From positions 152,908-191,768 of the forward strand of contig NZ_CACSIK010000003.1 of the NCBI RefSeq assembly GCF_902705875.1: a stretch of 38,861 nt of DNA. The letters are read 5' to 3'. Positions 421 to 30,221 of this stretch are shown here, in pieces. This DNA comes from Zhongshania aliphaticivorans (GTDB lineage: Bacteria; Pseudomonadota; Gammaproteobacteria; Pseudomonadales; Spongiibacteraceae). The translations under genes and the position numbers were made by a program. The notes under the pieces are model-generated. The model did no database searches. It was not told the DNA's origin and saw only the letters and a list, made by a program, of their open reading frames with translations. Position 1 is the first letter of the stretch. Each line of letters begins with the position of its first letter.

Positions 421-1284
421 ATGAAAAAATTATTCATGCTCAGCGTATTGACAGCAGCCACTACGGTATCAGCGAATCCAGATGTAACCTCTAGAGAATA
501 TAAGCTGATGCTTCAGCCATCACTTTTTGCCTACAACACCGAAAGTACTGACGTTGATGATTTCATCGATGATGCCGAGACAGCCATTGAAGCGGCAATA
601 AGTCGCAATGTGAGCGGCTCTGCAACACTCAGCAAAGTGCGTGATGTTAAATTTTTTGATACCGATGGTAGTTGCATACTTCGCGATATCGGCTACTCAT
701 TTCGAGAGCGCATTGAAAGCGGCGACTCAGAGGTCACGCTGAAGTTTCGTAGTGAAGATCGCTACATATCTGACTTTGAAGATCTATCTGCCAGCAGTGG
801 ATCGGCAGAAACAAAATTAGAGTCAGACATTGGCATTGCTAGCAGCGCTAATTTTGTTATTCAGTATAGCCATTCAACTACCGCACCCAACACCCGCACC
901 ATTAACGAAATGGAAGATATCAATGATCAGTTCCCAGGTTTTGATAGCGATTATGGTTACGCAAATAGCATTGACCTAGATCTAGTTGGAAACCTGACTA
1001 TTCGCGAGCATGTCTACAAAAATGTCGACATAGACCTAGGCTCCATAGACGCTGAGATTTCCGTAACATTGTGGTACAACGGTGCGCCAACAGGTTCTGC
1101 CACGCCTGTCGTGGTAGAAGTGTCCTTCAAATATCAAGACAACAGTGCTGACTATACCCAGAAAGTGGTTAACCGAGCCAAACAAGCATTTCTGGCATTA
1201 CAAGATTTAACCGCATGGACGGACCCTGCGTCCAAAACAAAAACACGTTTTGCATACGAGTATGACGCCAGCTTTTGTATTTAA
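421..1284 (+). CDS. Secreted hypothetical protein, possibly CYTH-like
   Basis: The 287-aa product starts with a signal peptide: Lys2-Lys3, a hydrophobic stretch, and a likely Ala-X-Ala-type cut near residue 19 (VSAN). I do not recognise the family with certainty. Residues about 75-112 read FFDTDG, then ILRDIGYSFRER, then EVTLKFRSEDR. This resembles the beta-strand pattern of CYTH/triphosphate-tunnel proteins (a YFDT strand, a Leu-Arg-x-Arg strand, a Thr-Leu-Lys strand). A later stretch, VVVEVSFKY, would fit another tunnel strand. Two cysteines, one in DGSCIL and one at the second-last residue, could form a disulfide in the periplasm. The gene stands alone and converges with the DTW gene. The secreted location is well supported; the fold is an inference and the function is unknown. 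Confidence 0.85.
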   Translation: MKKLFMLSVLTAATTVSANPDVTSREYKLMLQPSLFAYNTESTDVDDFIDDAETAIEAAISRNVSGSATLSKVRDVKFFDTDGSCILRDIGYSFRERIESGDSEVTLKFRSEDRYISDFEDLSASSGSAETKLESDIGIASSANFVIQYSHSTTAPNTRTINEMEDINDQFPGFDSDYGYANSIDLDLVGNLTIREHVYKNVDIDLGSIDAEISVTLWYNGAPTGSATPVVVEVSFKYQDNSADYTQKVVNRAKQAFLALQDLTAWTDPASKTKTRFAYEYDASFCI

Positions 1285-2059: not shown

Positions 2060-2854
2060 TTATTTTTTCTTACTCGATTTTCGCGGTTTTTTTGCAGGCT
2101 TTGCCGGTGCCGGCCGCGCTACGGCTTGCTCAAGCCAAAATAACGCATCCAAGTAATTAACGTATCGGCTAAGGTACTGTGGAGAAATGTCACGCATTGC
2201 GGTTAAGGCTTTAATGGCTAGCATTTGAGGGTTCAGCGGCCCGGGGCTGTCTGGCCCCTCTTGAATCGCTAATTCTACTCGTCGCTGTAATTCTCGCCGC
2301 TGCTGAGAAACTTGCATAGTCTGTATAGACTGCAAAGATCGGCGTCCAGTGGCCGCATCGTCTCCGTCCTCATCTTGGGCAAGACTTTGAGAATATAGGC
2401 CATCCGTCAAACTCTGCGCTTCCTGCACGCGCAACTGCCGCTCCAAGGTTGACGACGCCGGCGAATCGAGCTCAGCTTGTTTATTATTAAGTATTGCCTG
2501 CAGCTCGCGCAGTGCCGTTACAGTCTGAGTACGCTCTGGAGTAAGTCGCACACCCTGCCCCGATAACAGCATCGAAACCTCGTGATAATGCCCCGCGTGG
2601 AAAAGTGCCTCACCTTGCGCTAATTTACTCTCAGACAAACACCCTAGTGCTTTTTTAGCTTCAGCCTCATAATCAGTACGATAACGCTGTAATGCATCTA
2701 GAGCTTTTTGCTCTAAAAACACCTGCACCGGTTTCCGCGCCCGTTCTGCACGACCCAACATCGACTCAAGATAACGAAAACGAGCTGGGCTAAAACAATG
2801 TGCATTCGCCTCCCGCATGTTCATTAACTCTTGCCTGAGCTCAACCAACATCAC
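2060..2854 (-). CDS. DUF2894-type protein of the motor operon
   Basis: This is a 264-aa soluble, helix-rich protein with many Gln, Arg, Glu and Ala residues. It ends in a strongly basic Lys/Pro/Ser tail (last ~20 residues). No signal peptide or membrane segment is visible. From its place after an OmpA gene in a DUF3348-DUF802-OmpA cassette I assign it to the DUF2894 family; function unknown. The first codon is GTG at 2854, directly after the TAG stop of the OmpA gene, with AAGG eight bases upstream. An ATG follows at 2851, so either may be used. It is the last gene of the four-gene operon. A cytoplasmic partner or regulator of the channel pair is an inference only. Confidence 0.8.
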   Translation of the reverse strand: MMLVELRQELMNMREANAHCFSPARFRYLESMLGRAERARKPVQVFLEQKALDALQRYRTDYEAEAKKALGCLSESKLAQGEALFHAGHYHEVSMLLSGQGVRLTPERTQTVTALRELQAILNNKQAELDSPASSTLERQLRVQEAQSLTDGLYSQSLAQDEDGDDAATGRRSLQSIQTMQVSQQRRELQRRVELAIQEGPDSPGPLNPQMLAIKALTAMRDISPQYLSRYVNYLDALFWLEQAVARPAPAKPAKKPRKSSKKK

Positions 2855-3502
2855 CTACGGAGCCTTCTGATTCGCATTTTGTGCCCGTGGCACAGGCGCC
2901 ATTTCTACACGCCGATTTTGCGAGCGGCTGTCACTATCACGATTATCCACCACGGGTTGCTGGGCACCAAAGGCTGCGGCAAACACCATATTTGCCGGCA
3001 TTCCTTCGTCAATCAAAGCACGTGTTACTGTTAGCGCACGCTGTGCCGATAACTCCCAATTATCACGAAACTGCAAATTCCCCTTTTGAATAGGTAAGTC
3101 ATCGGTAAAACCACTCACCATTAGTAGCTGCTCGTTCTCGCCTAAATACACCTGAAGTGGCGCACGCAAAGTATGCAAAAGAGCCCGCCCTTCCTCCTGC
3201 AGCTCTGCCGAATTCAGTGAAAACAAAACACTGCCACTAATGCCTATTTTGCCATCGCGCAAGGTCACTCGCCCCGCCGCCAAAGGGTCGGCCAAGGCTT
3301 CCTCTAAGGCCTGACGACGCTGCTCAGCCACCTCACGCTTTTGTATTTCTGATTCTAAAGATTGCGATAGCTCAAGTTGAAACCCTAGCGCCCACACCAA
3401 TAACAATACAAACACACCGACTAAGCCGGTCATTAAATCGCCAAAGATAGCCCAAATTGGCGGCTCTTGATCTATCCCATTATCGAGCTCAGATGCACTC
3501 AC
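2855..3502 (-). CDS. OmpA/MotB-like protein, stator B subunit
   Basis: The 215-aa protein has one N-terminal membrane helix (about residues 16-40) preceded by PPIWAIFGD. The acidic Asp22 at the membrane entry corresponds in position to the proton-carrying Asp of MotB and ZorB. A short coiled region follows, then an OmpA-type peptidoglycan-binding domain with the MotB-like GFTDDLPI, NWELSAQRA and SRSQNRRVEM motifs. In known relatives such proteins anchor a proton-driven inner-membrane channel to the cell wall. It starts two bases after the MotA-like gene and abuts the DUF2894 gene. I am confident of the stator-like architecture; the process it powers is unknown. Confidence 0.9.
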   Translation of the reverse strand: MSASELDNGIDQEPPIWAIFGDLMTGLVGVFVLLLVWALGFQLELSQSLESEIQKREVAEQRRQALEEALADPLAAGRVTLRDGKIGISGSVLFSLNSAELQEEGRALLHTLRAPLQVYLGENEQLLMVSGFTDDLPIQKGNLQFRDNWELSAQRALTVTRALIDEGMPANMVFAAAFGAQQPVVDNRDSDSRSQNRRVEMAPVPRAQNANQKAP

Positions 3503-3504
3503 CG

Positions 3505-5601
3505 CTACTCGCCCTCTTCTGCAACCGCATGACTGGTTATGGCCTGCAACTGACGAATAATATCTTGGTGAGATAACATATTGTGATCAATAATTTCACG
3601 CGCCTGTGCAACGTAATACGCCATTTGCTCATCACTTCGCTCACCGCTACCCTGCAAACCCGACTCGACTTTTAACAATGTCTCGATAAGGCCGCTATTG
3701 GACTGGCTAAACTCATTTACTGCTGTGGCAAATGTATCACCCAGGCTGGCCAACTCCGCACTACTACCCTCAAAGTGCGCAACAACATCTGACAGTTTGC
3801 TGGATTCTTTTTCTACATTGTCACCAAAACGCTGACCAATATCCGCAAGCAAGTTAGATGAATTTGCCAAGATATTTTCCACCGCTTCTCGCTGGCCTGC
3901 TGCCGACATCTGCAGGGACTCTGACAAGCTGTTTAACTGAACCATTAACTCGCGGCGCTCATCTAGCAAGCTATTGTCGCGCTCGATATTGCCGTTCATC
4001 TCCTCGCGTAATTTCGCCATGATCTCTGCAGCGACACGTGGTGTTTCAGAAGCTGAATCAATTAGTCGCGCCATTGGCTCTTCTAGTGCTTTGGCAAGAC
4101 TCGCCAAATGTTCTTTCACCGCTGTTTGCAATTCAGCCAAACGCGCCACTGCGGCTTGGCTACGCTGCTCTTCTTGCGCTGTTAAACTGTGCAGCTCACC
4201 GCTTATTGCTGCGGTCATATCCGTCATTCGCTGCTGATATGCCTCAAACCAGCGACTTTCACTCTGTTGCCGCTCAGCGACGAGTGCTTCGGACGTAGAC
4301 ACCAGCTTGCTAAATTCCGCTATCAGCTCCTGAGATCCAGCACGGGCGTTAACACTTAATGCCTCGGCATTGCTGCGTAGCAAGTCGGCACTCTGATCAA
4401 ACACCGCCGACCAATTAGCAAGACGCTCTTGCTCAGCGGTCTGCTGCCGTGCGACCCAATCCTCACTCACCGTATTAAAGCTGGCGACTAAGGACTGAGA
4501 GCTAGAGGCAAACTGCTCGGCAAGCTGGGTAAAGCGATGATCGATGGTACTTAATAATGTCTCATTGCCCGTTTGCTGGCTTGAAATGGCCCGCTGCCAT
4601 GCCTCACTAAACGCATCAGTTGAAGCCACATGACGCTCATCTACATGCTGCAAATGCGCTTCGGTTGCTACAGTAAGGTGTTGTTGATTTGCTTGCATAT
4701 CAGCCCGTAAATCACGAACAAGGGTAGCTATGACTGGTGCAATATGCTCCCCGGCAATACGCCCGCTGTCTGCCAAACTTTGCTTTAAACTTGCATCAAC
4801 AGAGTTCGCCAGCTCTTTATACTGTGCTTGAGTGGCGCCATGAAACTGCTCTTGATTCTTTGTTAGCGTTGCCGCCAACTCGCCGCCCATACGTCCCAGC
4901 GTGTCAACTAACACGGTCAATTGCTGCGCAACCTCCGGTAATACCTCTGCCTGAGATTGCATGGCCTGATAACTTTGGCGACGCTGCTGATTTAATGAGA
5001 AAGATTTAAATACCGTATTCAAGGAGGCGTCTAATTCACGAGAGATCTGCAAGCGCTCTCGCCGGCTTAATGTAGAAATCAGCCCCAACATTGCCGATGC
5101 ACAAACCCCTGCAACTGACGTTGCAAAGGCCATACTTAAACCTTTAATGGGCGCCGCCAAACCAGCGCGCACCGCCTCCAGCTCATTACTTCCTTCTAGT
5201 GCGACCACGGCACCCTTTAAGGTGGCCACCATGCCAATAAAGGTTCCTAGCAAGCCCAGCATCACCAATAAACCGATAATATATGGACTCAATACCGGAG
5301 CCGGTAATCTAATATACTCTCCCTGTATTCGCTGACGCACGGCATTGCGAAGAACGCTGGGAACCGTCGACAACCAGGTTTCAATATCTTGTAGCGTGTC
5401 ATCGACACTTGCGATAGCCACTCCCAATGCGGTGCTAGCTTGTTGGTAGCGCAACAACTCCGCAAACCCCATTGCATATGCCGCGGCAATAAGCACAGTG
5501 ACACCTAAGGCCAGAACATTGCTACCGACAAACGCCGAAGCCATCCACACCACCACCAATGCACCCAATATAAACGCCGCCACCGAAATTATTCTTGTCA
5601 T
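3505..5601 (-). CDS. MotA/TolQ/ExbB-like channel with long coiled tail (DUF802 type)
   Basis: The 698-aa inner-membrane protein has two N-terminal helices (residues about 5-47), then two more at about 108-130 and 155-178 that carry the MotA/TolQ/ExbB features LLGTFIGMVATL and AFATSVAGVCASAMLG. The remaining ~500 residues are predicted helical coiled coil, rich in Gln, Ala, Ser and Glu, with recurring Trp at intervals (NWSAVF, WFEAYQ). I assign it to DUF802-type proteins by context and composition. A channel with a long cytoplasmic tail recalls ZorA of Zorya defence systems. It overlaps the DUF3348 stop by one base (TAATG) and lies two bases before the OmpA gene, so the three are probably translationally coupled. 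Confidence 0.88.
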   Translation of the reverse strand: MTRIISVAAFILGALVVVWMASAFVGSNVLALGVTVLIAAAYAMGFAELLRYQQASTALGVAIASVDDTLQDIETWLSTVPSVLRNAVRQRIQGEYIRLPAPVLSPYIIGLLVMLGLLGTFIGMVATLKGAVVALEGSNELEAVRAGLAAPIKGLSMAFATSVAGVCASAMLGLISTLSRRERLQISRELDASLNTVFKSFSLNQQRRQSYQAMQSQAEVLPEVAQQLTVLVDTLGRMGGELAATLTKNQEQFHGATQAQYKELANSVDASLKQSLADSGRIAGEHIAPVIATLVRDLRADMQANQQHLTVATEAHLQHVDERHVASTDAFSEAWQRAISSQQTGNETLLSTIDHRFTQLAEQFASSSQSLVASFNTVSEDWVARQQTAEQERLANWSAVFDQSADLLRSNAEALSVNARAGSQELIAEFSKLVSTSEALVAERQQSESRWFEAYQQRMTDMTAAISGELHSLTAQEEQRSQAAVARLAELQTAVKEHLASLAKALEEPMARLIDSASETPRVAAEIMAKLREEMNGNIERDNSLLDERRELMVQLNSLSESLQMSAAGQREAVENILANSSNLLADIGQRFGDNVEKESSKLSDVVAHFEGSSAELASLGDTFATAVNEFSQSNSGLIETLLKVESGLQGSGERSDEQMAYYVAQAREIIDHNMLSHQDIIRQLQAITSHAVAEEGE

Positions 5602-6386
5602 TAAACTTTCTCTACTTCCATTTCTAAGGCTTCTACCAAACCGATTATTGGCATCAGTCGCAATTCTAGTTCAGCTAACAGCAAGGCCTGCATCTCTCTA
5701 ATAAAACGGTCTAGCCATGCGCCTTTTTGCAGCCAACGGTCAATATCGTCTTGCCCTGAAACAGCGGCAGTTTCTATTTCAGAGGGATTTTCATGATCCT
5801 GACGATATGCCAAGTTCAAGCCATAAAACCGCTTAGCAAGTAAATGAGGGATGCCGGCGAACACGCGTCGGCTAAACTCTGCCATCGTCTCCGCCATAGT
5901 GCCATCCAATGTTGCTAGCTGAGCCAAGTTTGGCGAGCAGCCCGTCATAATGAGTTGTAACTGCCGCCGCAAAATCACTATTTTATGGTCCATCTCACTT
6001 TGATGCAGTGAGTAAAATCGTTGATAAGCAACAAAACCCGCTTCTGGGTCCGCCAAGGTATCTCGGTTGGGGCGCGGCAAAATCAAAGACGATGTACTTT
6101 GGCTCGCTCCCTCTTGCCCCTCCATCACAAAGCTATCAACAATAAACCTTAGCATTGTCCCGCGAGCTTGCATAAACACGTCATGTGGTTCTTCTGTGCT
6201 CTCTAGTCGCGTGAACGGCTTTTTCTTCAAACCCCGCAGTGATTCAGCCAAGACAATCGCATCTGACAAGCTAATCAACTCACCCAGCTTGTCAGCAAAC
6301 TGGCAGTGGCTTAAGCCTCCGTCCACCACCGCCATCTCAAGCAAAACGCGTTGCAGTCTAGAGCTTGTTATCGAAATTGGATTCAT
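5601..6386 (-). CDS. DUF3348-type protein, first gene of the motor operon
   Basis: This 261-aa soluble protein has no signal peptide or membrane helix. The N-terminal part (residues about 10-50) with LGELISLSDAIVLAESL matches my recollection of DUF3348 proteins, in which a leucine-rich segment ends in a conserved Asp-Ala-Ile. The C-terminus is leucine- and glutamate-rich and helical. The ATG at 6386 has AAGGA at a good distance. It opens the operon, and its stop overlaps the start of the channel gene by one base. Function is unknown; the consistent association with a proton-channel pair suggests a cytoplasmic component of the same machine. Family naming is from memory, not from a search. Confidence 0.82.
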   Translation of the reverse strand: MNPISITSSRLQRVLLEMAVVDGGLSHCQFADKLGELISLSDAIVLAESLRGLKKKPFTRLESTEEPHDVFMQARGTMLRFIVDSFVMEGQEGASQSTSSLILPRPNRDTLADPEAGFVAYQRFYSLHQSEMDHKIVILRRQLQLIMTGCSPNLAQLATLDGTMAETMAEFSRRVFAGIPHLLAKRFYGLNLAYRQDHENPSEIETAAVSGQDDIDRWLQKGAWLDRFIREMQALLLAELELRLMPIIGLVEALEMEVEKV

Positions 6387-6596: not shown

Positions 6597-7373
6597 TCAC
6601 TCCCCCCCGTAACTATTCCGCAAGTAAGTCATGATCTCTGCGGATTCAAACATAGCCACATCGGTATTAGGATCAATCAAGTATGGGACTTGTGACCGCC
6701 CCGTTAACTCTCGCAAACGCAGCCGATTCGGGCTGGTAATTGGCGCATCGGAAAACCAGCGCGAGCGCACCTGCGGTGGTCCCATTTCTTGCCAGCGCGA
6801 CTTTGCAAAATTACGCAGACGATAAGGCAGCTCAAGCTCGGTCAAAAGCTCACGAACCGGTCTTGAGTAAGGACTAGATTCAAAGCTGTACAATTCTAAT
6901 GGCTTCTCAGGCGCGATTGACGGCGCGGCATTCATACCACGAATACGACCAACTGATCGCGCTGCGGTTGCCGCCATCGACCCTGCGAGTGCAATTTTTG
7001 CCCGTAAACCTCTAGCAGAATGACCATTAGCACTGCGGTAATGCTTGTATAAATAATCAATGATATCTGCAGACTCTAATACGTGCTCTCCAGTATTGGG
7101 GTCAAATAACAGAGGAAATTGGCTAACACCGCTGATATCTAGAGCATCGGGCCTAAAACGCATTCCACCCACAGGGCATGGGTATATCAGCACATCAATA
7201 TCTAACTCACACAGCACTTCTCTAACCAGACGGCAATATGGGCAGGCCTCGATATCATACAAAATCAACATTTGCTCAGGCTGCCGAGTCTTATGGCCCG
7301 TAAATGCCGCTGTACCTCGCCACCCTCGCGCCGAACTTGCCATTACTGAGCTCAATAATTCAAACATCGCCAT
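6597..7373 (-). CDS. Tandem thioredoxin-fold (GST_N/glutaredoxin-like) protein
   Basis: The 258-aa protein carries two consecutive GST_N domains. The first (residues about 35-112) has a redox-type CPYC at 44-47, the cis-Pro region QFPLLFDPNTG and the ESADIIDYL segment. The second (about 158-255) has SPYS at 167-170 in place of CPYC, then QVPYLIDPNTD and ESAEIMTYL. No C-terminal helical GST domain follows, so this is not a normal transferase. The first domain could act in glutathione-dependent disulfide chemistry; the second may only bind glutathione. A hydrophobic small-residue linker (about 125-142) joins them. It is a single gene divergent from the Old Yellow Enzyme at 7564. Substrate unknown. 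Confidence 0.85.
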   Translation of the reverse strand: MAMFELLSSVMASSARGWRGTAAFTGHKTRQPEQMLILYDIEACPYCRLVREVLCELDIDVLIYPCPVGGMRFRPDALDISGVSQFPLLFDPNTGEHVLESADIIDYLYKHYRSANGHSARGLRAKIALAGSMAATAARSVGRIRGMNAAPSIAPEKPLELYSFESSPYSRPVRELLTELELPYRLRNFAKSRWQEMGPPQVRSRWFSDAPITSPNRLRLRELTGRSQVPYLIDPNTDVAMFESAEIMTYLRNSYGGE

Positions 7374-13229: not shown

Positions 13230-14630
13230 TTATGGTGTGGCGGAGAGCACCTCATTTGCCGCACGTTTCCCAGCGCGAACTGCACCTTCAAAGTAACCAG
13301 CCCAGCGTGTGCTCGTTTCAGTGCCCGCCCAATGAATCCGAACATGAGGCTCACGAAGCTGGTAACCCACCGTGGTCCAGTGTCCGACCGGAGCAACACC
13401 AGCATAACAACCTCGCGCCCACTCATCATCGCGCCAAGTATGATCGTAATAAGCTATCGGCTTGCTCGCTTCCGAACCAAAAAATGATACTAGCGCATCA
13501 ATAAACTGGTTGCGACGCTGCTCAGGGCTGTAATCACTTGCCCGCACGCCATCGCGCCCTTCAATAAAGCCCATCAAAATACCCCGCTGCTCATTTGGCG
13601 GAGTAACATCAAAGCAAGTGTGAAAGGGCGCAACATCACTGATCACTGAACCCGACCAACCCTGTGATCGCCAAAACGGTCTTTCGTAAATCGCAAAGCA
13701 TTTGATAGCACAACCTGGCTGCAGGTTTTGCAAGCAAGTTAATTTATCATCTGGCAGCGGCGGTACATAACTGATCTCTGCAGCCAACGCTGGAGGCGCT
13801 GCACATATCACTCGGTTTGCCGTAAATTGTTCAGTTTCTGAATAGACTGCCACCTCTTCACCCTGTTGCTCAATACGCTGAACCGCTTGCTTGAGATGAC
13901 ACTCAACCCCACGCTTTTCTAACACCGCCAAATACGATTCCGCAAGCGGTTGTGCGCCACGCTGTAAACGATCCTGCTGAGCCCCACCCGCAGATTCTGT
14001 CAGCGACAAAAAGCCACCTCCACTGCGACTATAAAAGAGCGCATGCAATAAACTAATATCATCAGGGTGTGCCGCGAACACACTTTCAATCGCAATTTGG
14101 AAAGTGCTTCTAGCATCTTTATGAGGCAAGTATTTACGCATCCAATCGCCAACCGTCATTGCATCTAGCTCTGCTGCGCCAGAAGCCTTCCACGGTGAAC
14201 TGGTCGGAACACGCCAAGATTGCCAATACCAACGAGCAACTGCAGTGAGCAAGCTCCACTGACCCGCAAGCGGCAAATTGTAAGGAATAGATCCACGATA
14301 TTTACCAATGCGACCAGAAAATATCGTGCGCACATAGCCTTTAACAAACATCGGCCAAGTAGTATGACCAAGGCGCTCTGCCAGTTCATACATCTCCGTT
14401 TGCCCCGGCCCCAACCATTGCCCCCCGTAATCCAGCCAAATATCATCGGCCAATTGCTCGGTGCGCGCACGCCCCCCTACCCTGTCGCGCGCCTCCAGAA
14501 TCACTACTTGCTTACCAGCGGCACTAAGAACATCTGCCGCCGCCAGACCGGAAAAACCAGCACCGATTACAATAATATTTTCCAAACGTGACTGCCCCAC
14601 AATTTTTATATTGGTTATCATAACGCCCAA
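13230..14630 (-). CDS. FAD-dependent amine oxidase (MAO-like)
   Basis: The 466-aa flavoprotein has the Rossmann motif VIGAGFSGLAAADVL (residues about 21-35), the Glu-Ala-Arg and GGR turn (LEARDRVGGRART) and the C-terminal flavin segment AGTETSTRWAGYFEGAVRAGKR typical of monoamine/polyamine oxidases. No Cys for covalent 8-alpha flavin attachment is visible near that segment. There is no Tat signal, so it is probably cytoplasmic. ATG codons at 14630 and 14621 are both possible. An 8-bp palindromic site lies about 55 bases upstream (14685-14706). Oxidative deamination of an amine is inferred; some relatives are desaturases. Confidence 0.9.
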   Translation of the reverse strand: MGVMITNIKIVGQSRLENIIVIGAGFSGLAAADVLSAAGKQVVILEARDRVGGRARTEQLADDIWLDYGGQWLGPGQTEMYELAERLGHTTWPMFVKGYVRTIFSGRIGKYRGSIPYNLPLAGQWSLLTAVARWYWQSWRVPTSSPWKASGAAELDAMTVGDWMRKYLPHKDARSTFQIAIESVFAAHPDDISLLHALFYSRSGGGFLSLTESAGGAQQDRLQRGAQPLAESYLAVLEKRGVECHLKQAVQRIEQQGEEVAVYSETEQFTANRVICAAPPALAAEISYVPPLPDDKLTCLQNLQPGCAIKCFAIYERPFWRSQGWSGSVISDVAPFHTCFDVTPPNEQRGILMGFIEGRDGVRASDYSPEQRRNQFIDALVSFFGSEASKPIAYYDHTWRDDEWARGCYAGVAPVGHWTTVGYQLREPHVRIHWAGTETSTRWAGYFEGAVRAGKRAANEVLSATP

Positions 14631-15331: not shown

Positions 15332-16234
15332 ATGAGATCCGTCAGAAGTATTCATAACGCTATTGCTTGCGTCATGGATGCCTCTGCTACGGTTGTCTCT
15401 ACAATAACTTCGACCAACAGTGATATGAAATACGCTCTTAAACTGCCGACCTCATTAAGCCAAGCTCAGCCGCTATTTATGCGCGTACACCCCGATGGCG
15501 ATCAGCACGTATCGGCCCAGATTCGTGAGCAAGGCACGTGGGAGGCCTACGAATCTGAGTTAATGTGCAGAATTCTGTCGCCCGGCGATTGTGTTGTCGA
15601 TGTTGGCGCTAATATTGGCTACTACAGCGTTCTCGCCGCTGCGGCCATTGGCCATGAAGGCCATGTATTTGCCTTCGAACCAGAACCCGCCAATTTCGCC
15701 TTACTCGAAAACAATATCGCCCTGAACGGCATTGAAACCGCTACCGCAATCAATGCCGGTCTTGCGGCCGAAAATTCAGCAAGCACCCTCTTTTTGAGCG
15801 AAACCAATTGGGGCGACCACCAAATTTATTCTCGCGGTGAGTGTCGTAAAAGCATTCCCATCGAACTCCTCAAGGGTGATGACTTTTTCAAAGACAAAAT
15901 ATCGCGTTTCGACCTGATCAAAATCGATACCCAAGGCGCAGAGTTTCAAGTGCTCTCTGGGCTTGAAGCAACCTTGCGTGCCAGCCTACCAAACGTCCAT
16001 ATCATGATAGAGTTTTGGCCCTTTGGCCTTAAAAAGGCGGGGGATCATGGCCACCAGCTGCTGGATTTACTGGCCTCATTGAATTTGCCGTTTTGGACGA
16101 TTGACCATATCGGGCGCACCCTGCACCCCTGCCAGGAATCCGAATTACGCGACTGGGTAGACGCTTTGGACGCAAACCCTTCCGACGAAGGTTTTTTCAA
16201 CTTACTTCTTAGCACACAGGAATTCGAACTCTGA
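15332..16234 (+). CDS. FkbM-family methyltransferase
   Basis: The 300-aa protein has the FkbM layout. SAM motif I is VDVGANIGYYS (residues about 90-100), followed by FAFEPEPANF, then the conserved RFDLIKIDTQGAEFQVLSGL and IMIEFWPFGL near the C-terminus. The family methylates hydroxyl groups on sugars, polyketides or other small molecules. The first ~30 residues are not typical and no clear ribosome binding site precedes the ATG at 15332; ATGs at 15374 and 15425 are alternatives. It is followed without a gap by the dioxygenase gene. The pair stands isolated between gene-poor stretches, which suggests acquisition as a unit. Substrate unknown. Confidence 0.88.
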   Translation: MRSVRSIHNAIACVMDASATVVSTITSTNSDMKYALKLPTSLSQAQPLFMRVHPDGDQHVSAQIREQGTWEAYESELMCRILSPGDCVVDVGANIGYYSVLAAAAIGHEGHVFAFEPEPANFALLENNIALNGIETATAINAGLAAENSASTLFLSETNWGDHQIYSRGECRKSIPIELLKGDDFFKDKISRFDLIKIDTQGAEFQVLSGLEATLRASLPNVHIMIEFWPFGLKKAGDHGHQLLDLLASLNLPFWTIDHIGRTLHPCQESELRDWVDALDANPSDEGFFNLLLSTQEFEL

Positions 16235-27806: not shown

Positions 27807-30158
27807 TTACTCAAATATCCATTTCGCGCGAACGCCGTAGTGACTAGGTGAGGATAGTGACAAACCGGGCCCAAAATCTAAATGAACCGCGCTTGCAAAA
27901 TAACGTTCATCAGTAATGTTTTCGCCATAAGCTGTAATCTGCAAACCCCAAGGATTATAAAAATAACTAATCCGTGCAGCATAAGTTTGGTATGACTCTT
28001 GTTCCATTAATGATGTGTTTTGAGGTGTAAAGAAGTACCCAGAGTTGTAATAGGAGTCGATAGCAAATTCAATATCGCTATCAGCGCTCAAGTAAAAACT
28101 CTGCAATATTGTTGCTGAAGCTGTAAATTCAGGAGATTGAACTATGCTATTGCCTGTAAAGTTTCGAGGAGGTAAACCAAATGTACTTCCCGGACCAAAA
28201 GCAAGTCCCGTGTCTTCATCAAAACCTCTCCCATCTTCAAAAGATGTATAAATCGCATCAAGATACGATCCTGAGAAAATTACAGCTAACCCAGGATTTA
28301 AGTCTGGCATTGGTTGAAGCTGCATACTAAGTTCTGCGCCTTTCACCTCACCATCCCCAGCGTTAAAAAAGTTAACCGCGCCACCAGAAGTTAGAGCTGT
28401 GTAGGCAGTAATGATATTTTAACGCTCGATATAGAAAACTGCCCCCTCCAATTGTAACTGCCCATCCAGCCACTCTCCCTTGAACCCTATCTCAAAGGCA
28501 TGATCTTCTTCTTGCTCAACAAAATCTGGAGCTTCAAAAAAGTTGACCGTGTTGTAGGTTGGACTCAGATAACCGATTGAATAAGACGTGTATATTTGCC
28601 AAGTATCAAAACTCCATTTAGCAGACACTCTCGGGCTTAATCTCTCAGTCGTTGCGTCTTCTACTTCAAAGGAGGAGAACGGCAATGTAATCGTATTTGC
28701 GACGGAAATGTCCACCCGAGATCCATTTACACCCCGTGTCTCTTCGTCGTACCGCAACCCCAATGACAAGTCCAGTCGATCGAAGAGTGTATATGTCCCT
28801 TCAGCAAACGCTGACGCTGACTCAGTTTCTAACAGACCATACGATGCGAGTGTTACCCCTGCCCCATTTAATAAATCTCCCACTCCAGGCAGTAACGAAT
28901 CCAAAAGACCACCCAAGCCACTTAACGATGGCAATGCAAGTGCATTATCCGCTATATTCAAATACAACGGATCGTAACCACCCAATGATTCCAAATAATA
29001 TGCACCTACAACCCAGGTAAAGGTGTCACTCCAAGGTGTTTCTTCATTCGACTCAAAACGCACCTCAGCGGTTTTTTGCTCTGCAAATTGCTTTCCAACC
29101 TCTCCTTCGAGCATCGGTGCGCTTGTATAATCAAGGTCTCCAAAGCCATAAGGTACGGTTAGCGTTTGATCTGAAACAATTGCTTTTGCTGAAAAATAAG
29201 GCAAGTCCCAGTTCATATAACCGGCAATGACATGCCTACGCGTTCTCAATTCTGCAGGGACATTATTTTCGACTTGATAATCATAAGCCGGATCTTCATC
29301 ACAGATAGCGCATAAGATCGGAGCGGGGTTTGTGCCTTCAGAGGCCAGGCCTCCCGACGTTGAGCTTTCCTCATAAGAACCACTTAACGTAAAATCTAAA
29401 CGGTCTGTTGCATACCATTTTATTTTTACACGACCACCACTTAAGGTGTCATCTGCCACCGTTTTTCCAAGTGTGTTTTTGTATAAAGCTTCTTGATCTC
29501 GGTAGATCCCAGATACAGTAGCAGCTAATGAATCCGTTATAGGTAAATTAAGAAAAAAGGATCCGCTATAGTTATCCGACCCCATTTCGCCGTAACGGCC
29601 GCCTTCTAATTTAAGTTGAGCGCCAAATGCATCCGTCCTCGGTTCCGGTGTTACAATTCTAATCGCACCACCTAAAGCGTTACGACCAAACAGCGTACCC
29701 TGTGGACCTTTGAGCACCTCTACACGCTCTACATTTACCAAGGCATCCACTGAGCCTTGCGAGGGTAGCGAACTTATATCATCAACATATATAGGTACAC
29801 TGGGGTCAGCTGAAGGTAGGTAAGCATCTGAGCCAACACCACGAAGAAATACAGTATTGAAGCCAATAACGCTACCGAAAACTAAACCAGGCGTAATTTT
29901 AGCTAAACCCGTCGCACTCTCCACGCCAAAAGCATCTAGCTTCTCACCAGAGAATGCCGCAATGGCTATAGGCACATCTTGTGAGTCTTCCTCACGTTTA
30001 CGTGCCGTAACCACTACCTCTTCGAGCAGTCTATTTTGCTTTTTTACAACTGGTCTTGCCGTGGAAATATCACTATTACTTTGTGCATTTGATTGGGTGG
30101 AAATGCAAGCCACAACAAAACCAAGGAAAATCATTTTTCCGTTTATTTTTATACTCAT
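27807..30158 (-). pseudogene. TonB-dependent outer-membrane receptor, interrupted by TAA
   Basis: A full-length receptor frame (784 codons) has one in-frame TAA at 28419-28421 (codon 580). Translation on both sides stays in the same frame (FYIER, stop, NIITAYTALTSGG). The N-terminus has a signal peptide, a TonB-box-like EEVVVTARKR, then the plug domain (VPIAIAAFSG, LRGVG, VLKGPQGTLFGRNALGG). The barrel ends in a proper terminal strand with final aromatic (RAKWIFE). AAA to TAA would explain the stop. The truncated form would lack about ten barrel strands and could not work. The ATG at 30158 has AAGGTGG eight bases upstream. Its place in the operon suggests uptake of the hydrophobic substrate. 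Confidence 0.88.
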
Positions 30159-30221
30159 TACCAGTACCACCTTTGCAGAGGTATATAAAAAATTACAATC
30201 TCATAATTAAAATGTAATATC

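Follow-up and report, generated by a model that had tools for sequence, protein, structure and literature searches.

A complete Zorya type III operon in a Zhongshania-like marine gammaproteobacterium and the ion-driven motor it may encode

The window considered here is a stretch of 38,861 nucleotides from contig NZ_CACSIK010000003.1 of Zhongshania aliphaticivorans, whose genome comprises 3,979,381 bases in 7 contigs. On the minus strand, positions 2060-6386 hold four genes, which the ORF listing gives in transcription order as DUF3348, MotA-like, MotB-like and DUF2894 (Table 1). The genes are closely packed: DUF3348 and the MotA-like gene overlap by 1 base, 2 bases lie between the MotA-like and MotB-like genes, and 0 bases separate the latter from DUF2894. 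The tightly packed four-gene cassette described in the original prediction is confirmed by these ORF coordinates and spacings, and by Pfam matches to DUF3348, OmpA and DUF2894. Each of the four proteins is matched by a PADLOC model of Zorya type III, and the models of types I and II match far more weakly (ZorA1 4.9e-14, ZorA2 6.9e-9, ZorB1 2.3e-20, ZorB2 3.9e-6). A ZorAB pair set between two DUF genes, the arrangement of type III, is what the window contains. The cluster is almost certainly a complete Zorya type III anti-phage operon of a Zhongshania-like marine gammaproteobacterium.

Table 1. Features of the four-gene cluster, in window coordinates
Feature	Position	Strand	Details
DUF3348 protein, first gene	5601-6386	-	261 aa, ATG; Pfam 1.4e-47; PADLOC PDLC00657 1.8e-53
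ZorA3, MotA-like channel subunit with long cytoplasmic tail	3505-5601	-	698 aa, ATG; PDLC00648 9.5e-222, residues 1-695
ZorA residues 120-162 with T120, T161 and S162; candidate Ser/Thr ring	5116-5244	-	invariant in 102/102 sequences
ZorA residues 301-500, variable tail middle	4102-4701	-	mean majority-residue frequency 0.33, low in part owing to gaps and insertions
ZorA residues 501-675, conserved tail end, proposed docking part	3577-4101	-	bin 651-675 at 0.80
ZorB3, MotB-like, one membrane helix and OmpA-like domain	2855-3502	-	215 aa, GTG; PDLC00651 5.4e-106, residues 4-213
ZorB Asp22 codon, expected ion-carrying residue	3437-3439	-	invariant in 103/103 sequences; aligned with D24 and D26
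DUF2894 protein, last gene	2060-2854	-	264 aa, GTG; Pfam 2.9e-28; PADLOC PDLC00652 1.5e-39

Payne et al. named Zorya III in 2021 from 6,401 gene pairs (printed as zorBC) lying between DUF3348 and DUF2894 genes (PMC8565338), and the type is defined by these two families together (PMC8565338, PMC11890865). When the type III system of Stenotrophomonas nitritireducens was placed in E. coli, plaquing was lowered for at least one tested phage (PMC8565338), and a core Zorya III has been reported in Ralstonia solanacearum (PMC13064858). A literature search, with most subscription papers outside its scope, found no study of the structure or mechanism of type III. The cluster in the window joins the four families of the type side by side in a single operon, as in the published description (PMC8565338); anti-phage activity is known from the Stenotrophomonas system. 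Zorya III is a known system, and the cluster is an ordinary member of it in which nothing was found that sets it apart. The label of unknown function attached to the cassette is not borne out by the PADLOC matches and can be removed; among the functions offered in its place (defence, motility or stress), defence was rightly included. The original prediction was also wrong in holding that the Zorya partners were missing and that the soluble partners were unassigned, since type III has the DUF3348 and DUF2894 proteins as its partners (PMC8565338, PMC11890865). Only ZorC, ZorD and ZorE of types I and II had been considered. The names of the two proteins vary with the source: PADLOC-DB 2.0.0 calls the DUF2894 protein ZorF ('ZorF3', PDLC00652) and the DUF3348 protein ZorG ('ZorG3', PDLC00657), the reverse of the naming in PMC8565338 and PMC11890865.

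Residue conservation in the four proteins was counted over the ORFs of 120 loci plus the window, giving 102 or 103 sequences per protein; ORFs cut by a locus end or shorter than 0.6 of their length in the window were excluded, and identical C-terminal 150 residues were taken once. ZorA gives profile matches to the PDB chains 8vvn_C (4.7e-9) and 8qyd_A (3.2e-4), and remains under the cut-off of the NCBIfam ZorA models. Its description as a MotA/ExbB-like DUF802 protein held in part: DUF802 is found, barely over its Pfam cut-off (22.8 against 22.6 bits) and at residues 325-372, in the tail and not in the channel, and MotA_ExbB stays below its own cut-off (13.6 against 22.9 bits). As for the four membrane helices claimed for this subunit, the hydropathy scan lists three hydrophobic regions (from residue 7, 97-126 and 157-178) with the second helix not listed separately, and four helices are plausible. 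In types I and II, a ring of Ser/Thr residues of ZorA surrounds the ZorB Asp (PMC11890865); by analogy, the invariant T120, T161 and S162 may form such a ring here. Beyond the channel part, the start of the tail (about residues 203-300) is moderately conserved, the middle is variable, and the far end is conserved again, with residues 509-560 plus 641-675 at 0.70 and the stretch 576-600 in between at 0.49. This pattern suggests a tail built as motor, spacer and docking end. The conserved end is a possible docking site, and it is where contact with the two partners should be looked for.

In ZorB, the OmpA domain lies over its Pfam cut-off (4.8e-17), and the NCBIfam equivalog PRK09040, titled 'hypothetical protein', is likewise matched over its cut-off (1.2e-102); MotB_plug falls under the Pfam cut-off (11.9 against 24 bits). 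The hydropathy scan shows one hydrophobic region, at residues 23-41, and the claimed position of Asp22 at the start of the B-subunit helix is confirmed. Asp22 aligns with D24 of 8vvn_B and D26 of 8qyd_F. In types I and II, defence depends critically on D24 (PMC11890865). Compared with the PDB, the first 60 residues of ZorB give 7 matches at E up to 10, and just two of these, 8vvn_B (2.9e-4) and 8qyd_F (0.18, a weak match), belong to channel proteins; the remaining matches are helices of integrin and the EGF receptor. Entry 8qyd also contains a chain named ZorA, and 8vvn is probably the Shewanella type I pair of PMC11890865, because the Asp stands at position 24 in both. A stator-like channel pair with two soluble partners was a correct reading of the cassette.

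The strongest PDB matches to ZorB are MotB-type OmpA domains. Among the residues compared for peptidoglycan binding, T133, D134, L151, R155, R193, R197 and R198 are invariant. At residue 132 (3107-3109, minus strand), Phe stands in place of His in 103 of 103 sequences, and MotB 6ysl has His there. A His in this motif is important to wall binding by ZorB I (PMC11890865), and Phe132 would occupy the same position, as read from the motif and not from a direct alignment. Because Phe replaces a residue that matters in ZorB I, wall binding in type III may be different.

The DUF3348 and DUF2894 proteins are predicted to be all-helical, and the hydropathy scan reveals no membrane segments in either. 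Pfam and NCBIfam place neither partner in an enzyme family, no PDB sequence match to either is better than E 0.086, and the fold search returned no convincing match; this lack of a family or fold proves nothing about enzyme activity. The few polar residues kept in at least 95% of sequences are Gln129, Asp161, Glu239 and Arg243 in the DUF3348 protein and Asn208 and Tyr227 in the DUF2894 protein. While ZorE of type II is a nickase (PMC11890865), these residues do not look like a nuclease site. Homologue searches from the two accessory proteins gave 48 and 38 proteins, respectively, and both proteins are divergent. The question posed by type III is narrowed, as these two proteins would have to supply its antiviral step, and the effector of this type is the one part worth following.

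A condition that would have refuted the original prediction, genes that do not travel together, was checked and does not hold. The four genes occur in the same order and on the same strand in 40 of 40 loci from 40 genomes, 20 from the window's family and 20 from the order's other positive genomes, and the linkage is more than chance because order and strand are kept in all of them. When 80 loci found through ZorB are added, 115 of 120 show this arrangement of all four genes, and in the other 5 the missing gene falls at a contig end; at least 12 of the 80 repeat contigs of the 40, and the count without repeats is 103 of 108. Across 293 genomes of the order, DUF3348 is present in 58 (57 over the cut-off) and DUF2894 in 57. 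Both accessory families occur in 56 genomes and only one of them in 3, namely DUF3348 in G122 (below cut-off) and G246 (83% complete) and DUF2894 in G179 (730 contigs). Short gene overlaps are frequent in the clusters of relatives. The rows of A1 and A2 are the window and 33 of the 40 loci; A3 takes in 39 of 48 homologues besides the window, and A4 33 of 38 besides the window; the rows dropped from A1-A4 were mostly near-duplicates or short. In one genome (G047, contig 1, 3429087-3429542), the DUF2894 match contains one in-frame TAG, and its Zorya III may be decaying for this reason.

A defence island around the cluster is rejected on the ten neighbours within the window that were scanned with PADLOC, 2 of them on the DUF2894 side; 8 of the ten gave no match. 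Those that matched encode an amine oxidase (13230-14630; C3a186, 3.3e-21) and an FkbM methyltransferase (15332-16234; mad2, 1.2e-5), and given their Pfam results both are taken as hits to broad enzyme families. No convincing defence gene and no PADLOC match to ZorC, ZorD or ZorE was found among these ten, and Pfam shows no flagellar or Tol/Ton partner among 13 neighbours examined. The upstream neighbour (6597-7373, minus strand) carries two glutathione-transferase N-terminal domains in tandem (Pfam). Of 20 family loci, 10 have the same glutathione-transferase-like gene immediately upstream of the cluster, and in 3 more it lies elsewhere in the locus. A fifth operon gene was sought among the flanking ORFs of the 120 loci, and none of the 25 largest groups keeps a constant position next to the cluster from family to family. 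These groups come mostly from the window's own family; the wider groups are spread over both sides and strands and look like shadow frames or common enzymes.

All 18 sampled genomes of the genus carry DUF3348; the genus in this sense is broader than the name Zhongshania and takes in records bearing the names Spongiibacter marinus and Neomelitea salexigens. DUF3348 is found in 20 of 21 family genomes (in all 18 of those of good quality) and, on larger scales, in 58 of 293 for the order, 8 of 369 for the class and 20 of 398 for the phylum. Together with the variable middle and conserved end of the ZorA tail, this presence throughout the genus is what the present analysis adds. The same genus genomes contain Cas1 in 6 of 18. 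The restriction family HSDR_N matches 17 of 18 at E 0.001, with 11 of 18 matching better than 1e-10, one of these with stops inside; because so many genomes match, HsdR is a weak control for patchy defence and sets Zorya III apart only in part. A tblastn search with ZorB was negative for 50,697 phage records (limit 1e-10); for 72,556 plasmid records (limit 1e-30) it gave 27 matches, each in a record of 366 kb or longer.

Strict vertical inheritance is rejected, as the Zor trees conflict with rpoB at strongly supported splits. In the comparison of 35 genomes, from which 5 of the 40 were dropped for want of an rpoB match (G013, G019, G158, G028 and G226), single-gene Zor trees have 12-16 of 32 splits in common with rpoB, against a mean of about 0.2 and at most 3 with shuffled labels. 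The strongly supported conflicts amount to 2-4 splits per Zor gene and 6 when the genes are joined. In the ZorA, ZorB, ZorF and joined trees the window's family holds together as one group; in the ZorG tree it does not. Three other sampled families (f43, f28 and f47), each one group by rpoB, are grouped in no Zor tree. The picture is of a cluster kept within genus and family and exchanged or replaced over longer times, and its occurrence in every sampled genus genome suggests that the defence has been retained for a long time and is not transient.

The best explanation overall, and a probable one, is a Zorya type III operon whose ion-driven motor would signal to the two partners. The 5:2 ZorA:ZorB assembly has been solved for types I and II, in which ion flow, wall binding and the ZorA tail are all needed (PMC11890865). 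The window's pair resembles those systems in having ZorA, ZorB with an aligned ion-site Asp, an OmpA-like wall anchor and a long ZorA tail, and differs from them in standing beside DUF3348 and DUF2894 rather than ZorC/ZorD or ZorE. Carried over from types I and II and combined with the sequence, the detailed mechanism is slightly favoured. ZorA and ZorB would assemble 5:2 into an ion-driven motor of the inner membrane; an infecting phage would disturb the cell wall, upon which the OmpA-like domains of ZorB would grip peptidoglycan. Ions passing by Asp22 would then turn or shift ZorA, the long tail would convey the signal to the cytoplasm, and its conserved end would engage the two soluble helical partners, which in turn may trigger or regulate the antiviral step. 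The parts, their order, the invariant channel residues, the tail layout and the joint presence of the genes, all seen in the sequences, support this explanation, as do the PADLOC matches and the anti-phage activity of a relative (PMC8565338). Against it stand the lack of an enzyme family or fold for the partners, which leaves the antiviral step unexplained, and the presence in all sampled genus genomes, which is unusual for a defence system. The invariant Phe132 of ZorB, the ten scanned neighbours without a convincing defence gene and the contribution of gaps to the low values of the tail middle also count against it.

The partners might instead act as a plug or sensor that opens ZorAB on infection, so that depolarisation stops the phage or kills the cell and the ion leak is itself the effector. 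Such a leak has no need of a further enzyme, in keeping with two partners that have neither an enzyme family nor a convincing fold match. Payne et al. put the two proteins forward as regulators of ZorAB that replace ZorC/D/E, and they recall a proposal that ZorAB acts as a proton channel in abortive infection (PMC8565338). That the far end of the ZorA tail is conserved, however, points to work away from the membrane, and the effector of Zorya II is the nickase ZorE (PMC11890865); an effector leak is possible but rather unlikely. It is more doubtful that the cluster is primarily a machine for envelope maintenance or stress, with phage protection as a by-product or an effect of laboratory overexpression. 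Its presence in the whole genus when Cas1 is found in only 6 of 18, the same gene directly upstream in half of the family loci, the lack of matches in phage records and the core status in Ralstonia solanacearum (PMC13064858) would all suit such a machine. Yet a relative has anti-phage activity (PMC8565338), the distribution is patchy on the scale of order, class and phylum, and the gene trees conflict with rpoB in places, so that the genes have been exchanged or replaced; since HSDR_N is nearly as widespread in the genus, wide presence is compatible with defence.

A motor without any enzyme can also be imagined, in which a rod-like tail with a docking end works on two purely helical partners. 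It would be a core chromosomal machine of whole genera, its first job guarding the envelope and phage defence following from this; the idea is speculative and regarded as improbable. The pair does have the MotA/MotB-like layout in common with stators of flagella, Tol/Ton or other transport, namely a stator-type membrane helix with an Asp and an OmpA-like wall-binding domain, and MotB-type OmpA domains top the PDB matches of ZorB. A transport stator in an unusual setting is nonetheless scarcely credible. ZorA, unlike MotA, has a long cytoplasmic tail, ZorB lies far under the cut-offs of NCBIfam MotB and MotD (the best flagellar model, MotD PRK09038, gives 89.2 bits against 283), and Pfam MotA_ExbB and MotB_plug are below theirs. 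The ZorB membrane segment moreover matches ZorB chains and no MotB chain. A flagellar, Tol/Ton or secretion motor was rejected on these family cut-offs and on the 13 neighbours examined, which include no flagellar or Tol/Ton partner.

Elsewhere in the window, a gene at 421-1284 (plus strand) encodes a protein of 287 residues with a secreted-like start, for which Pfam returned nothing over cut-off and NCBIfam nothing at all. On the minus strand, the ORFs at 27807-28346 and 28419-30170 appear by eye to be the two ends of one broken TonB-dependent receptor.
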